Assembly: GCF_000982415.1 (NCBI RefSeq)
Contig: NZ_LANI01000003.1
Location: forward strand, 1 to 64,000
Source: Kiloniella litopenaei
GTDB lineage: Bacteria; Pseudomonadota; Alphaproteobacteria; Kiloniellales; Kiloniellaceae
Direction of reading: 5' to 3'
DNA: 64,000 nt
Shown here: one piece after another, positions 30,050 through 39,196 of the stretch
How the letters are laid out: the number at the start of each line of letters is the position of its first letter
Numbering within the stretch: position 1 is the first letter of the stretch
The notes under the pieces: generated by a model
Told to the model about the DNA's origin: nothing
The model's database searches: none
The model's input: only the letters and a program-made list of their open reading frames with translations
Translations under genes and position numbers: made by a program

Positions 30050-30508
30050 ATGACTAATATTCTCTACCGACACGCTGAAGAAAAAGACCTCTTATCCATT
30101 ATTGCCATGCTGGCTGACGATGAACTTGGGGCAAAACGGGAAGACAACTCAGTGCCTGTAAACTCAAAATATATTCAAGCCTTCGAAGCCATTGATAAAG
30201 ACCCGAACCAATACCTCGCCGTTGTGGAGCAGGGAAAGGAAATCGTCGGCTGTCTTCAACTAACTTTCATCCCCGGCCTTTCTCGTCTCGGGATGTGGCG
30301 GGGACAGATTGAGAGTGTTCGCATAAGCTCCACGCACCGTGGTTCCGGCCTTGGCAGTCAAATGTTTGAATGGGCGATCTCAGAATGCCGCAAACGTGGG
30401 TGTGAATTGGTACAGCTCACGACAGACAAAGCGCGCCCTGATGCCCTTAAGTTTTATGAAAAACTTGGCTTCAAAGCCAGCCACGAAGGTATGAAGCTAA
30501 ATCTATAA
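30050..30508 (+). CDS. GNAT-family N-acetyltransferase
   Basis: 152 aa. The acetyl-CoA binding region is GQIESVRISSTHRGSGLGSQMFEWAI (motif A, R-x-x-G-x-G), followed by QLTTDKARPDALKFYEKLGF (motif B). N-terminal RHAEEKDLLSIIAMLADDEL is typical of single-domain GNATs. Acceptor unknown. It is convergent with luxQ, separated by 13 bp. Confidence 0.87.
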   Translation: MTNILYRHAEEKDLLSIIAMLADDELGAKREDNSVPVNSKYIQAFEAIDKDPNQYLAVVEQGKEIVGCLQLTFIPGLSRLGMWRGQIESVRISSTHRGSGLGSQMFEWAISECRKRGCELVQLTTDKARPDALKFYEKLGFKASHEGMKLNL

Positions 30509-30521
30509 CCTTGTGTCAGGT

Positions 30522-32720
30522 TTAGTGGATCGTTGATCGATCCCCATTAGAATCAGTACCGCCTGTCGTGCGTGAGGCTGGGAATGTAATGGTAATTTCT
30601 GTACCTTTTCCCAGCTTACTATCGATCCGCAAATCGCCATTATGTAGGTCCGTAAGTGACCTTACCAAAGACAACCCCAGGCCGGAACCTTCCCGTGTTC
30701 TCGTCATACTGTTTTCAACTTGCGCAAAGGGATCAAGGACACGGGCCAGATCATCCTCAGCAATACCTACCCCCGTATCAGAAACCTGCAAAACGATCTC
30801 ACTCTTATCATTGACCAAAGTGCTTGCCCGCACCAGACCAGGTTCCGGCGTGAACTTTATCGCATTACTCACCAAATTCAATATAATCTGCTTCACGCGT
30901 CGTTGATCTCCGATCATTTCTGGCAAAGCCTCAAACGGTTCTATTTTTAGATCAACCCTCGCCTCTTCCGCTCTCGCTTTTAACATACGGCACGCATCTT
31001 CCAGCGTCTTATTGAGATCAAAATAGTCTTCATCAATGTTAACTTTGTGAAGCTCTAGACGAGAAACATCCAAAATATCATTAATTAAGCTCAAGAGGTA
31101 AACACCAGATTGGTTGATATCGTCGATATATTGAAGTTGCTTATCGTCCAACGTTTCCTTTAACTGCATTTTCAAAAGATCAGAAAACCCAATAACAGCG
31201 TTCAAGGGTGTCCTTAGCTCATGGCTCATATTCGCTAGGAATTCGACTTTACTGCGGTTCGCATACTCAGCCTGTTCTTTGGCTGATCGCAGTGCTTTTT
31301 CTACCTTAATTCTATCTGTGATATCGGTTGCAAACCCGCAAATACCAACAGTTTCACCCGCCCCAGACTTTAAGGGAAATTTTACACTCAAATAGGTATG
31401 GACACCGTCATCATGATGGACCTGCTCTTCGAAAGTCATTGCTTTATTCTGTTTAAGAACTTCCAGATCGTTCCCCGCCATCTCTTTCGAAAAATCGGCA
31501 GGTAAGTGCTCCATATCTTTTTGCCCAATAAGTTGCTCTTTTTTGACCTGGAAAAGATCCTCATAACTTTTATTGACAAAAAGATACCGCCCCTGGACAT
31601 CCTTGTAATAAATAACAGCACTCGCATTATCCAAAATAGATTCTGCCCGTGCCTCCGTCTCTTCTAGGTCAAGGACAACCTGATGCAAGACCCCACCAAT
31701 TTCATTAAACTCTTTAATACGAGAAGGGGCATACTGTTTTTGATTTTTCCCAAGGGAAACATATGCAGCATATTCCTTGAGGTTATGAATGGCTGTTCGG
31801 CTAAATCGACGCACAACCCAAACAGACAAAAGCGACAATACAAACGTGATCACAGCCATCATCAAAACAATATCGAGATAGTTCTGACCCAGATTTTTTA
31901 CCGTTTCCTGAGGATAAAATATTTTTAACTCAAGAAACTGATTGTCCGCGCTTTCAATATCCAAAGGAAGAGACAGTGCCAGAACATCTTCAGCTTCAAT
32001 CAAGGTACTCGCCCCTGTATTGATACCTATTGATGTATTATGAAGCTGGGAAACGACAGCGTCCCCCGCGACAAGAGCAAGTGAAGAACTGCCAACGTTG
32101 TTATTAATTTGATTCAAGACTGATGTTGCATCATTAAGAATAACCCCGGCATATAAATACCCCAGTACCTTGCCAGAATTAAGATGCAAAATTTCTTTTT
32201 TATGCAGGATTGAATAGAGCGTCTGGCCTTTTTCAACCGTCACAAACATCTCATTCATAAAACGCGTTTGATTATTGTCGAGTGCTTGTTGCAACAAGCC
32301 ATCTGTCTCAAAGAGAGAGGCACTTACATCAATAGTTTCAGTTCCTTGCCCAATTTGAGCAAACAAAACATCAAGGTCACCGTCTTGCTGTGAATAATAT
32401 GCTTCGTTTAATGCATCTGCGACCAACTCATGATCGCCTGACTGCAAACCCTTTGTCACCTTTTCGTTTATAACAGTAAGATCTAGGACGCTTTTTGATA
32501 CCTGTAAATGTGCATTAAAAAGAAGCCGACCAATTGTTTTACTTTTTTCACCCAGGCTATTGATATCTGTCCGCACAGCATCACGCGCGCCCCAATAACC
32601 AGCGAAGCTGACAACACCTGATACGATAAGCATCAAGCATAAAAAGGCCGCGGCAATGACCGTCGACAGCCTGAAAACATATCTTTCTTTTGACGTATCA
32701 GTTCGAGTACCGGAAGGCAT
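30522..32720 (-). CDS. luxQ: LuxQ-like sensor histidine kinase (no receiver domain)
   Basis: 732 aa. Membrane helices at about 17-43 and 283-303 enclose a periplasmic sensor of about 240 residues that has features of the LuxQ periplasmic domain (SGKVLGYLYAGVILNDATSV, then SLALVAGDAVVS). Then come a juxtamembrane linker (IKEFNEIGG), a PAS domain (about 360-470), a dimerisation domain with H500 in MSHELRTPLNAVIGFSDLL, and a HATPase (NLVSNAIKFTP, VSDTGVGI, GSGLGLSLV). It ends there, whereas Vibrio LuxQ continues into a receiver domain. It overlaps luxP by 23 bp, so the two are translationally coupled. The name rests on its pairing with luxP. Confidence 0.82.
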   Translation of the reverse strand: MPSGTRTDTSKERYVFRLSTVIAAAFLCLMLIVSGVVSFAGYWGARDAVRTDINSLGEKSKTIGRLLFNAHLQVSKSVLDLTVINEKVTKGLQSGDHELVADALNEAYYSQQDGDLDVLFAQIGQGTETIDVSASLFETDGLLQQALDNNQTRFMNEMFVTVEKGQTLYSILHKKEILHLNSGKVLGYLYAGVILNDATSVLNQINNNVGSSSLALVAGDAVVSQLHNTSIGINTGASTLIEAEDVLALSLPLDIESADNQFLELKIFYPQETVKNLGQNYLDIVLMMAVITFVLSLLSVWVVRRFSRTAIHNLKEYAAYVSLGKNQKQYAPSRIKEFNEIGGVLHQVVLDLEETEARAESILDNASAVIYYKDVQGRYLFVNKSYEDLFQVKKEQLIGQKDMEHLPADFSKEMAGNDLEVLKQNKAMTFEEQVHHDDGVHTYLSVKFPLKSGAGETVGICGFATDITDRIKVEKALRSAKEQAEYANRSKVEFLANMSHELRTPLNAVIGFSDLLKMQLKETLDDKQLQYIDDINQSGVYLLSLINDILDVSRLELHKVNIDEDYFDLNKTLEDACRMLKARAEEARVDLKIEPFEALPEMIGDQRRVKQIILNLVSNAIKFTPEPGLVRASTLVNDKSEIVLQVSDTGVGIAEDDLARVLDPFAQVENSMTRTREGSGLGLSLVRSLTDLHNGDLRIDSKLGKGTEITITFPASRTTGGTDSNGDRSTIH

Positions 32721-33819
32721 CTTTTTTCCATATCAAAAGCTGTTCAGAAGTTGTTGATTGGTCAACAACCTTAAAGTCACCTGAAAAAACAGTTGGCACC
32801 CGCTTTTCTTTTCCTGCCAAAACCAACTTTATAGCTTCAGCCATGGCCACACCGTTATCGTCGTTCATACGCATAACGGTGAAGTCCATTTCCCCGCGAC
32901 TGATCGCAGCAAGCTCGCTACTTCCCCCGCCCCAACCATTGACTTTCACCTTCCCTAGCCGCCCTGTCTCCTTTAACGCATCGATGACACCTATGGCGAT
33001 ATCGGTTGAGCATGCATAGATAAAATCAAGATCAGCATTCTCCGCCAAAAGCTCCATTGTCGCCCGGTAAGCTTTTTCACGGTTGAAATCAACATAATAA
33101 GATCCCAGCAATCTCGAGCTCTTATGTTGGGACATCACTCTATGGAAGACACCCCCACGAAGGCTGCTTACATATCCCTGGGTGCCATAAAGAATAGCAT
33201 AATTGGCACCGTCCGGATACTCACGCTTATAGCGATTAGCTAAAATTTGCGCACCAACACCGTGGTCGAAACCAACGTAAAGTAAAGGTTGCTTTTTCTC
33301 GAATGCCTTGATAGGGGATGTAATATTTTGAAGCAGAACACGGGTTTTACCAGCAGAAATTATGCGATCAATCATCCCCTTATGCCTTGTGGCATCCAAG
33401 GTAAATACTAAAAAATCCGGTGGGTTATTCACACTTTGCCCAAGTAACTTTCCCTGAAGAGCGACCTCTGTTCCTGCTTTTGTAAAGTGAGACGACAGCT
33501 CATACGAAATATTTAGTTCCTTCATTCTGCCTTCGAACGAAGCTATTGACCGCCGCCAGTAATCTGAAAATTGCAGGCCAGGATATACGATCAAGATTTG
33601 AATCGGAGTGGTTTGTTTTTTACTTAACGTGCTGGCGGGGCCACGTACTTGCTCAAAGAACTGCTCAGAAATGGCAACCTGATCCGGGTGCATCTCCAGG
33701 TATTTGTTCAACAGCCAATATTCTTGAGTGCTTTGCGCATAACCTGAAGACGGCAATTTTATTAATATTACAAAACCGAGAAAACAGAGAAAACCCACGC
33801 GAGAAAAACAACCAACCAT
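32698..33819 (-). CDS. luxP: LuxP-like autoinducer-2 binding periplasmic protein
   Basis: 373 aa from ATG 33819 (AAGG 13 nt upstream; the longer frame starts with TTG at 33861). Signal peptide of about 28 residues, then a two-lobe sugar-binding fold. From memory of Vibrio harveyi LuxP, the AI-2 contacts Q77, S79, W82, N159, R215, T266, D267, W289 and R310 align with Q83, S85, W88, N165, R221, T272, D273, W296 and R317 here, at a near-constant offset of 6 to 7. Local blocks VYPG-Q-x-SDYW, ILQNIT-like and NGWGGGS are also shared. The role is binding furanosyl borate AI-2 and presenting it to LuxQ. Confidence 0.88.
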   Translation of the reverse strand: MVGCFSRVGFLCFLGFVILIKLPSSGYAQSTQEYWLLNKYLEMHPDQVAISEQFFEQVRGPASTLSKKQTTPIQILIVYPGLQFSDYWRRSIASFEGRMKELNISYELSSHFTKAGTEVALQGKLLGQSVNNPPDFLVFTLDATRHKGMIDRIISAGKTRVLLQNITSPIKAFEKKQPLLYVGFDHGVGAQILANRYKREYPDGANYAILYGTQGYVSSLRGGVFHRVMSQHKSSRLLGSYYVDFNREKAYRATMELLAENADLDFIYACSTDIAIGVIDALKETGRLGKVKVNGWGGGSSELAAISRGEMDFTVMRMNDDNGVAMAEAIKLVLAGKEKRVPTVFSGDFKVVDQSTTSEQLLIWKKDAFRYSN

Positions 33820-33936
33820 TATATAGCCCTTAGCAAACGGATAACGGAGTTTGGTGTTCAACTATTACAGTAAAAAATTACATATAGGTTAACCCTTGGC
33901 TGCGTACATCTAGTGCATAACATTTAACAATATTTA

Positions 33937-34248
33937 TCAAATACTTCCTACCTTTTCTATTACCAGAACTCTGGCCGCCCCTTGTGGATGGGCAACATGT
34001 TCATCCCCTTCTTCTGCCACACAGATCGATCCCGCCCCCATCATATGCTGCTCTGTTTCACCACCTTGCTTAAAAAACATCCGTACTTGCCCCTCTAAAA
34101 CAACAAAAACTTCGTTGCCATCATTGACGTGCCATTTATAAGGCTCATCAGTCCAATGTACCCGCACTGATGCCCCCTCAACAACGGACAGATCCAATGC
34201 CGCCCAAGCTCTATCGCCGGTAAAATCACTGCTTTTGAAAAATTTCAT
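33937..34248 (-). CDS. Cupin-domain protein
   Basis: 103 aa, a single cupin barrel. Metal-site motifs: WHVNDGNEVFVVLEGQVRMF (G-x-N/D-E and G), and EGDEHVAHPQGAARVLVIEK for the second half. Similar stand-alone cupins are found in sugar or polyketide metabolism, but no function can be given. It is divergent from an Lrp-type regulator (126 bp between starts), which may control it. Confidence 0.8.
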   Translation of the reverse strand: MKFFKSSDFTGDRAWAALDLSVVEGASVRVHWTDEPYKWHVNDGNEVFVVLEGQVRMFFKQGGETEQHMMGAGSICVAEEGDEHVAHPQGAARVLVIEKVGSI

Positions 34249-34374
34249 TTCGCCTCCTAAAATACAACACTGTTAAAACAGCAAATCCATAGTCGGTATT
34301 TTAAAGCTGGCCTCTGAAATCGAAATAGGCATGATGTAGCGTACAGCCTGTTATATTAACTATAACTGACCAAC

Positions 34375-34806
34375 ATGGGTATATCTGTGGACGATAAAGA
34401 TCAGAAACTATTGCAATTGCTACGGCAGAATGCACGCGCATCTATAAAAGAGCTGGCGGCAGGCGTTGATTTATCGAGAACCGCATTGGTAGAACGCATT
34501 AAACGTCTAGAGAGAGATGGCGAGATAACCGGGTACACCCTAAAGCCTGTGCACAAGAAGACTGAAATCAAACTCTTTCTGTTGATAAAAACCCATCAAC
34601 CATCATGCGAGATCATTGCGCCCCGTTTAGAGCGGCTCTCATCAGTGAAAGCCTGCCATTCTTTAGCAGGTTCAATTGACATGATTATTGAGCTTGCCTT
34701 GGAAAATATCCATGAAGCCAACACAATCAGAGAACTTGTGTCGAACTATCCAGAAGTCAGCGAAGTGTCAACTTCAACTATCTTAAAAACTCATTTTCAA
34801 AAATAA
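34375..34806 (+). CDS. Lrp/AsnC-family regulator
   Basis: 143 aa. The N-terminal winged helix (DDKDQKLLQLLRQNARASIK, DLSRTALVERIKRLERDG, GYTLKP) and the C-terminal RAM ligand domain (LIKTHQPSCEIIAPRLERLS, SIDMIIELAL) are both present. Its partner is the divergent cupin gene. The ligand is unknown; RAM domains usually bind amino acids. Confidence 0.88.
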   Translation: MGISVDDKDQKLLQLLRQNARASIKELAAGVDLSRTALVERIKRLERDGEITGYTLKPVHKKTEIKLFLLIKTHQPSCEIIAPRLERLSSVKACHSLAGSIDMIIELALENIHEANTIRELVSNYPEVSEVSTSTILKTHFQK

Positions 34807-36701: not shown

Positions 36702-37874
36702 ATGTCTGATTTAGAAGAACTTCGCACCCGGGTAGAAGCAGCTGAAGAACATTTTGGTCTTATCGCTGATCAACAAAAAGGCTATAGCCAACGCTTGATT
36801 GCCCTGCTCAATATTACCGAGCAAAAGGATCAGACCATCGGAAAACTCGAATACGAAAACGAGCAACTTCGCACGATGCTGTTCTCTCTTTTGCAATCTA
36901 TTGAAAAGGGAGACACAACAAATACCCTGCAGGACATGGACGCACGCATCTCGGCGATGACAAGCGAAGCTGTTGAAATAGAAAACAAATCATCTGACGA
37001 TGATCTATCTCTTCCTGCTCCGGACGATAATATTCAAGAGGGAAACGAAATCTCTGATCTTGAAGAAGATACATCTGCGTCAGATGATTCAGTATCATCG
37101 GAAAAGGCAAATGAAGAGAGTATCGACGAGATAGAAGACCTTGTAAGCGATCTGGAATCTGCAGATAGCGACATGCCTATGGATGAAGATACGTTATCCA
37201 TGGATGATGCGAACAAAGGTACAGACGATGAGGCAGCCGACATTACTATGGAAGATGTCTCCGAATCTGCAGTTGCGCCCGATTCTCTGGAATCCGAATC
37301 ACAAGAATCCGTGCCAGAAGAAATATCTCCAGAAATCACAGACGAAACGCCAGCTGAAGACATTTCGGAAGCTGAAACCAGGGATGACATAGAAGAAGAT
37401 GCCATAGAAACAGAAGCTGCTGATGCTTCGGAAGACGATATTATCGCGGAAATTGCAGACAATCTGGAAGAGGCCCTACCCGCGGAAGAAGTCGAAATTG
37501 CAGACGCTGAACCCGAAGCGGTTATAGAAAATGAAGCCTCTGGTGAAGATATCGATAGCCCTCTGGAAGGATTGGAAGATCCTCTGGAAGATCAAATTTT
37601 GTCTCAGAATTCCTCGCCTGATCCTAGTACACGAGAAGGATCAAATGAAGAGCCAACTATGGAACCTGAGATTGAGGCCCAAACTACGCCTAGCATAGGA
37701 ACGCCAACAGAAGTTGAAGCAGAAATCAGTGCCGAAGAAATTCCCTTGAGCGAAGATACAGATATCGACAGCTTCCTTGATGAAAATGCGGATGAAGAAG
37801 AAAAACCGGGCAGCCCGGAAATTGAAGACATAATGGAACGCATTTCAAAACAAGCGCTTTCACAGGGGGAATGA
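36702..37874 (+). CDS. Highly acidic low-complexity protein of unknown function
   Basis: 390 aa. The first 70 residues form a predicted coiled coil (LEELRTRVEAAEEHF, QTIGKLEYENEQLRTMLFSL). The remaining 320 residues are almost entirely Glu, Asp, Ser, Ala, Thr and Pro with irregular EEDIS/EAEI-like repetition and no predicted fold. The C-terminus (EDIMERISKQALSQGE) is a short helix. It has no signal peptide or cysteine. It is divergent from rhodanese-metZ. Such proteins can be cytoskeletal, polar or scaffold proteins, but I assign no function. Confidence 0.65.
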   Translation: MSDLEELRTRVEAAEEHFGLIADQQKGYSQRLIALLNITEQKDQTIGKLEYENEQLRTMLFSLLQSIEKGDTTNTLQDMDARISAMTSEAVEIENKSSDDDLSLPAPDDNIQEGNEISDLEEDTSASDDSVSSEKANEESIDEIEDLVSDLESADSDMPMDEDTLSMDDANKGTDDEAADITMEDVSESAVAPDSLESESQESVPEEISPEITDETPAEDISEAETRDDIEEDAIETEAADASEDDIIAEIADNLEEALPAEEVEIADAEPEAVIENEASGEDIDSPLEGLEDPLEDQILSQNSSPDPSTREGSNEEPTMEPEIEAQTTPSIGTPTEVEAEISAEEIPLSEDTDIDSFLDENADEEEKPGSPEIEDIMERISKQALSQGE

Positions 37875-37975
37875 GAAAGGACTGCCCCACGAAAGACCAT
37901 TTTTATTTCCCTTAACAGTCACCTTGCGTTAATGCCTGTTCCTACATCTTTACTTTTCGAAAAGCATCTCTGCCC

Positions 37976-39196
37976 GTGATTTCGGACTATCTGAAACTAT
38001 ATCTGCCACCAATTCTACTTGTCACTGGGGCTATTTATCTGGTCGCTTACCCCCAAAGCTATCCGGCACCGATAGGTCTGTTACTCAACATTGCGCCGAC
38101 AACTCTTTCGGTATTAGGCGCAGGACTTTGCCTCTGGTTTAGAAAATCCAATCCTGTTTTTTGTTTCGCTATTGCCGTTGCCTTTGCCTATTTCAGTAAT
38201 GACATGTCTGAAACTCAATCTTCTGCTGCATTTATTTGTATCCCATTGGCTTGGATGGGGTTGGCTATCAGTGAAGAAAGAGGCCTTCTGACACCTTCCG
38301 GTTTCACCAAGGGCCTCTTGTTATTCGTAGCAAGCAGTATGATTGCCACCTTGGGCTATCCCGCCAATGATCTAGGTATATTTTCCAATCTATGGATTGA
38401 TTTGAACTATGGGGTTCAATGGCGCCCTACCTGGGGAATCTGGATGCCTTTACCAGCCCTGTCCTTTGGCGCATTCAGCCTATCGGCACTGGTTTTGACC
38501 GTTCGTCTAATCATCAAACACAGGCCGATGGACGCCGGATATCTTGGGGGGCTTATTGCTCTTTTTGGCGCGGCATTGCGATACGGAGACTTACCCGCAA
38601 CTCCTATATTTATTACACTTTCATCTCTTCTACTTATCCTTAGCCTTTTCCAGGAATCCCACCGAATGGCTTTTCTGGATGAATTGACCCGCATTCCTGC
38701 CCGACGGGCTCTTCTTGCTGATATGAAAAAATTGGGCCGCCGCTATACACTGGCCATGGTCGATATCGACTTCTTCAAGAAATTCAATGATACCTATGGG
38801 CATGACGTTGGGGATCAGGTGCTTAGAATGGTGTCATCCCGTCTAAACCAAACTGGTGGCGGTTGCCGTGCTTACCGCTATGGCGGTGAAGAGTTCACCT
38901 TGCTTTTCCCCGGAAAAACCGTTGATGAAACTTTCGACTATCTGGAAGAAGTGCGCGAACGGATTCAAGGAACTGTCTTTGTGATCAGGGGATCAGATCG
39001 CCCCACAAAGAAGCCAACAAAAGCGAAGAAGACCACACAAAAGAATGCGGGAAATAAAAAAGTCAAAGTCACCATTTCCATTGGTGTGTCAGAACGAACA
39101 GAAAAACACGAAGATCCAATGGATGTGATGAAAAAAGCTGATCGCGCCCTCTACAAGGCAAAAGACAAAGGCAGAAACTGCGTAATCGAGATGTAA
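37976..39196 (+). CDS. Membrane-bound diguanylate cyclase (GGDEF domain)
   Basis: 406 aa, GTG start. The N-terminal 210 residues have several hydrophobic segments, indicating a membrane sensor. The GGDEF domain starts at LDELTRIPARRALLADM and contains DIDFFKKFNDTYGHDVGDQV and the catalytic YRYGGEEFTLLF (GGEEF, active-type). No RxxD inhibitory site is evident just before it. A Lys/Thr-rich insertion of about 20 residues (about residues 345-365, RPTKKPTKAKKTTQKNAGNK) interrupts the C-terminal half. It synthesises c-di-GMP. Confidence 0.9.
   Translation: MISDYLKLYLPPILLVTGAIYLVAYPQSYPAPIGLLLNIAPTTLSVLGAGLCLWFRKSNPVFCFAIAVAFAYFSNDMSETQSSAAFICIPLAWMGLAISEERGLLTPSGFTKGLLLFVASSMIATLGYPANDLGIFSNLWIDLNYGVQWRPTWGIWMPLPALSFGAFSLSALVLTVRLIIKHRPMDAGYLGGLIALFGAALRYGDLPATPIFITLSSLLLILSLFQESHRMAFLDELTRIPARRALLADMKKLGRRYTLAMVDIDFFKKFNDTYGHDVGDQVLRMVSSRLNQTGGGCRAYRYGGEEFTLLFPGKTVDETFDYLEEVRERIQGTVFVIRGSDRPTKKPTKAKKTTQKNAGNKKVKVTISIGVSERTEKHEDPMDVMKKADRALYKAKDKGRNCVIEM

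Follow-up and report, generated by a model that had tools for sequence, protein, structure and literature searches.

The question raised by the first 64,000 nucleotides of contig NZ_LANI01000003.1 of Kiloniella litopenaei (assembly GCF_000982415.1; referred to here as the window) is whether an alphaproteobacterium carries a receptor pair for autoinducer-2 (AI-2) of the kind formed by LuxP and LuxQ in Vibrio and, if so, whose signal such a pair would report. A preliminary description of this DNA had recognized a LuxP–LuxQ-type pair in two adjacent genes, and the analysis presented here supports that assignment by sequence, fold and a phylogenetic tree, in a cell without luxS: the Kiloniella pair is probably a LuxPQ-type AI-2 receptor, most likely one used for listening only.

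In a phmmer comparison with the sequences of the PDB, the predicted periplasmic protein matches LuxP chains with E-values of 4e-98 to 1e-97, the next best match standing at 8.5e-13, and its whole-length similarity to LuxP far exceeds that to other sugar-binding proteins. It is 45% identical to the LuxP of Vibrio harveyi (PDB 1jx6, 2hj9, 1zhh) and is the single LuxP match in its own genome (4.3 Mb, 100% complete). The ten residues that we take to be the AI-2 contacts of the Vibrio protein (Q77, S79, W82, N159, R215, S265, T266, D267, W289 and R310) are all kept in the computed alignment, as Q83, S85, W88, N165, R221, S271, T272, D273, W296 and R317 of the window protein; this bears out the nine contacts listed in the preliminary description and adds a tenth, S265. 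A structure comparison shows that the protein has the LuxP fold. That fold is also common to ribose, allose and other sugar binders, and transport-type homologues of LuxP keep six of the ten contacts, presumably with another ligand; given also that pairs of a sugar-binding protein and a kinase exist, e.g. the XylFII–LytS complex, one could imagine a LuxP-like receptor that has come to bind some other small sugar-like compound, a nutrient that the kinase would then report. We consider this rather unlikely, as a ribose or other sugar binder is disfavoured by the phmmer scores, the contacts, the fold comparison and the LuxP tree. The latter comprises 93 rows (85 LuxP-grade and 8 transport-type, with ribose-binding proteins left out) and has an unsure root that rests on a distant outgroup; the LuxP-grade rows split from the transport-type ones with support 100/100, and the window LuxP falls on the side of Vibrio LuxP, away from the transport-type homologues. 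By sequence and fold it likewise stands apart from ribose-binding proteins, the alternative that the earlier description had itself named.

The assignment as a LuxPQ-type receptor extends to the pairing of the two genes (Table 1), with luxP just upstream of the sensor gene as in V. harveyi. An open reading frame (ORF) check confirmed both frames and their overlap as first described. An overlap identical in length is shared by 9 of 83 distinct LuxPs derived from the loci of relatives (L018, L019, L023, L025, L026, L028, L031, L035, L072), all of them among the 33 alphaproteobacterial ones; this recurrence supports the start codons and suggests that translation of luxP and luxQ is coupled. An alternative TTG start of luxP lies 14 codons upstream, at 33861, in a frame that is also open, and the N-terminus has a signal sequence, as judged by eye. 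Across relatives, the distances between LuxPs increase in step with those between the sensors (r 0.855 for 68 pairs, reached in none of the 2000 permutations; 0.76 among distant pairs), as a jointly inherited pair should show, with common descent of the hosts contributing.

The partner is a membrane kinase whose periplasmic part matches the LuxQ-periplasm family PF09308 with 38.6 bits (cut-off 25.7), a family that is also over its cut-off in 20 of the 21 LuxQ-like relatives run against Pfam, L020 falling below it with 22.5 of 25.7 bits. No Response_reg match, i.e. no receiver domain, was found in the kinase with Pfam. A frame-shifted or cut-off receiver domain was ruled out, since the kinase stop (30522) and the GNAT gene, which ends at 30508, are only 13 bp apart.

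Table 1. Positions of the luxPQ-type pair, of the kinase domains and of the surrounding features in the window
Feature	Positions	Strand	Remarks
luxP-type gene	32698..33819	(-)	373-aa periplasmic AI-2-binding protein, predicted; ATG start
luxQ-type gene	30522..32720	(-)	732-aa membrane sensor histidine kinase without receiver domain
luxP end / luxQ start overlap	32698..32720	(-)	23 bp
LuxQ periplasmic sensor domain	32046..32528	(-)	PF09308, residues 65-225
PAS domain of kinase	31311..31634	(-)	PAS_4, residues 363-470
HisKA	31053..31250	(-)	residues 491-556; phospho-acceptor box HELRTP from H500
HATPase_c catalytic domain	30573..30911	(-)	residues 604-716; N, G1 and G2 boxes
luxPQ-holding stretch	30509..33936	(.)	3428 bp; absent from matching place in sister Kiloniella
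GNAT gene	30050-30508	(+)	flanks luxPQ stretch
cupin gene	33937-34248	(-)	flanks luxPQ stretch

In the mechanism that these features suggest, LuxP would be exported to the periplasm and close on AI-2, the kept contacts pointing to the borate form as the ligand. Empty or loaded, it would sit on the LuxQ-type periplasmic domain, and its loading would decide, as in Vibrio, whether the attached enzyme acts as a kinase or as a phosphatase; that the Kiloniella pair binds AI-2 and switches in this way is what we infer from the likeness to that system. Because the kinase has no receiver domain, the phosphate would pass straight to a response regulator whose gene lies elsewhere, and not through a receiver of its own, LuxU and LuxO. 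A search for Hpt, the domain of LuxU, gave eight matches in the genome, six of them over the cut-off. The AI-2 perceived would come from other bacteria. The preliminary description had noted that no luxS lies in the window, and a search of the whole genome also gave 0 matches, the same search being positive, as a control, in 5 of 14 genomes; an S-adenosylhomocysteinase is present. A survey of 48 relatives' genomes from the 80 named loci, of unstated completeness and many of them metagenome bins, found luxS in 17, distributed as 0 of 23 Alphaproteobacteria, 12 of 14 Gammaproteobacteria (Vibrionales 7 of 7), 4 of 4 campylobacterial genomes, 1 of 6 Thermodesulfobacteriota (where the match is partial) and 0 of 1 Magnetococcales.

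As to where the pair comes from, the preliminary description, noting that LuxPQ is best known from Vibrionales, had suggested horizontal transfer or an unappreciated AI-2 response, and a recent transfer from a Vibrio-like donor would fit the patchy occurrence in the genus and the clean empty sites described below. The tree does not support a recent Vibrio origin, because 34 alphaproteobacterial rows form, with one Magnetococcales row, a clade (97/90) separate from that of the Vibrionales and two Aliagarivorans rows (22 rows, 100/100), which in turn nests within a gammaproteobacterial clade (33 rows, 98/93). After L023, the window LuxP has its nearest kin in L025 and L026 (4 rows, 100/96), to which it is 55-56% identical versus 45% for V. 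harveyi, and the G + C contents of luxQ (0.428) and luxP (0.45) are near that of the window (0.457). Recent transfer from Vibrio was rejected on the tree and on the missing receiver domain, and can be given hardly any weight. In the matching place of the sister genomes, four of the eight have an empty site at which the GNAT and cupin genes abut tail to tail, three are without both luxPQ and the cupin–Lrp pair, and in one the contig ends before the site. A second Kiloniella copy has a LuxP 91% and a kinase 89% identical to those of the window, with both frames intact. It has to be noted that one metagenome bin (G428) holds both a filled site on C345 (L023) and an empty one on C276 (L115), so that it probably mixes strains, and the one carrying the second filled site may be a different strain; the LuxPs of L023 and L024 are identical. 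The cupin and Lrp-type regulator (33937-34806) are only 60-69% identical to those of the empty-site relatives, most flanking genes being 83-99% identical, and were perhaps exchanged together with luxPQ. Farther along, within 36702-39196, lie a long acidic repetitive protein (390 aa; 36702-37874, 66-70% identical) and, after it, a protein with a GGDEF-like C-terminus, as judged by eye. When the window cupin, Lrp, GNAT, O-succinylhomoserine sulfhydrylase-like and aminotransferase-like proteins (named by eye) were used as tblastn queries against 14 alphaproteobacterial LuxP loci, no match at 1e-3 was found that would indicate a shared neighbourhood outside Kiloniella.

In the wider class, 9 of 385 genomes (the window's own included) match LuxP at E 1e-30, seven of LuxP grade, again including its own, and two of a 29% kind; in the order, 9 of 61 genomes match, two of LuxP grade, both Kiloniella. 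The LuxP-like binding proteins of L008 and L011-L016, from the same family as the window genome, and of L009, from the same class, are 27-29% identical and keep six of the ten LuxP contacts, and several adjoin an ORF of approximately 371 aa that by eye resembles a sugar permease; these are possible transport cousins of LuxP. Further relatives came from a named genome collection, of which the best 80 of 264 were used. The outputs of the 83 distinct LuxPs, classified with small profiles seeded from the Pfam matches, differ between groups. The 33 alphaproteobacterial loci encode hybrid kinases with a receiver (10), kinases without one (7) or GGDEF-EAL proteins (12), with two showing no LuxQ and two ending with the contig, and the 19 Vibrionales have 18 hybrid kinases and one that is cut off. 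The 18 other Gammaproteobacteria have five GGDEF-EAL proteins, three kinases, two LuxQ sensors with a receiver (kinase domain unchecked), seven with none found and one contig end. Kinases are found in all four Campylobacterales, the one Magnetococcales and the two unclassified loci, and the six Thermodesulfobacteriota show one SpoIIE, two kinases, two hybrids and one cut off. Fusions of the LuxQ sensor to GGDEF-EAL occur in Stappia and Labrenzia/Roseibium and, separately, in Oceanospirillum, Marinobacterium, Neptuniibacter and Zobellella. Directly after luxQ, 3 of 17 alphaproteobacterial kinases (L026, L082 from Roseospirillum, and L021) have a REC-HD-GYP regulator with HD and GYP motifs. In L039 a short receiver ORF and then a REC-GGDEF-EAL regulator follow luxQ, in L073 a receiver-only protein, in L046 and L083 other kinases, and in L028 a 71-aa receiver-like ORF that may be a remnant. 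A Desulfococcaceae genome (L032:9236-11470) encodes a SpoIIE-type phosphatase joined to a LuxQ periplasmic domain. LuxP-grade genes without a recognisable LuxQ in the fetched stretch were seen in L057, L081, L086, L088, L091, L101 and L103 (Motilimonas) and in L030 and L077, and three Motilimonas contigs each hold two divergent LuxP-grade copies.

Several observations weigh against a LuxPQ-type listening receptor in Kiloniella. The kinase reaches 320 bits with the NCBIfam model LuxQ_Vibrio (cut-off 1200), and its sensor is 13-15% identical to four Vibrio sensors. Of the LuxQ-like kinase described earlier, the periplasmic sensor therefore stands, and the Vibrio-type LuxQ does not: the protein shares with Vibrio LuxQ (PDB 2hje, 3c38) the periplasmic fold, the PAS, HisKA and HATPase domains and, by gene order, the LuxP partner, and differs from it in the points just given and in the receiver. 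Conservation of R310 among the 80 loci is partly built in, because the scan selected loci by the peptide patterns [VI]MRMNDD and [FL][LQ]YVGFDH. No response regulator lies beside the window luxPQ, and for the majority of the alphaproteobacterial kinases, that of the near relative L025 among them, an HD-GYP regulator was not seen next to luxQ. A search of the Kiloniella genome with the L026 REC-HD-GYP regulator gave 41 partial matches, none across both domains; the two best cover residues 168-323 and 160-324 (the HD-GYP part), one other is a short match to the HD part, and the remainder fall in the receiver part, so that no orthologue was identified as the partner. The pair is patchy, being present in two of nine Kiloniella genomes, one a mixed bin. 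An accessory pair that is decaying or idle, with no working output, would account for the lack of a regulator next door and for the seven genomes in which luxPQ was not found; it is very unlikely, as the window keeps both frames and the kinase boxes undamaged and the frames of the second Kiloniella copy are intact as well. Lastly, non-canonical AI-2 synthesis has been proposed for some luxS-less bacteria (PMC7584622), for which reason exclusive listening to other bacteria is likely and not proven.

In the literature, LuxP is said to occur only in Vibrio (papers of 2020 and 2025; PMC7584622, PMC12503165), the Vibrionaceae are given as the sole family known with LuxPQ (PMC3386761), and the restricted distribution of LuxP and LsrB is said to have cast doubt on the role of AI-2 as a signal between species (PMC12503165). 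For Vibrio LuxP a Kd of 0.16 uM is quoted (PMC7584622). Moderate LuxP homologues have been noted in Oceanospirillales (Neptuniibacter, Marinomonas), Desulfuromonas acetoxidans and Desulfovibrio desulfuricans, with no complete circuit outside the Vibrionales (PMC2561040), LuxP is tabulated in Desulfovibrio (PMC8586430), two unnamed alphaproteobacterial candidates are mentioned with data not shown (PMC11069264), and 115 LuxQ-periplasm proteins have been counted, 112 of them presumably histidine kinases (PMC4822843). In the open-access texts searched, neither alphaproteobacterial LuxPQ pairs nor a LuxP partnered by a GGDEF-EAL protein were described. That luxS-less alphaproteobacteria such as Sinorhizobium meliloti eavesdrop on AI-2 has already been proposed for the Lsr-type receptor (PMC3386761), which differs from LuxPQ in its binding protein and in that it imports the signal. 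In the AsrK–AsrR system of Vibrio furnissii, AI-2 acts on a kinase in control of a cyclic di-GMP (c-di-GMP) phosphodiesterase regulator, although there AI-2 is bound directly by a dCache_1 domain, without LuxP, and AI-2 under low boron is favoured (PMC11796354).

In a wider reading, for which we see about even chances, the Kiloniella kinase would represent one branch of an AI-2 input module that is old, portable and common to Proteobacteria and sulfate reducers, and that did not arise as an invention of Vibrio. Where alphaproteobacteria lack luxS, this module of LuxP and the LuxQ periplasmic domain would serve eavesdropping and would have been wired repeatedly to c-di-GMP turnover, through GGDEF-EAL fusion or a REC-HD-GYP partner, so that foreign AI-2 would steer the choice of settling versus swimming; to guess from these relatives, c-di-GMP turnover might also be the Kiloniella output. 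A contact-complete LuxP with a LuxQ-type partner in luxS-less alphaproteobacteria would give AI-2 a class of listeners. Because the output domains have been exchanged among relatives, one can also test whether a single type of receptor input governs outputs as different as a kinase, a phosphodiesterase and a phosphatase.
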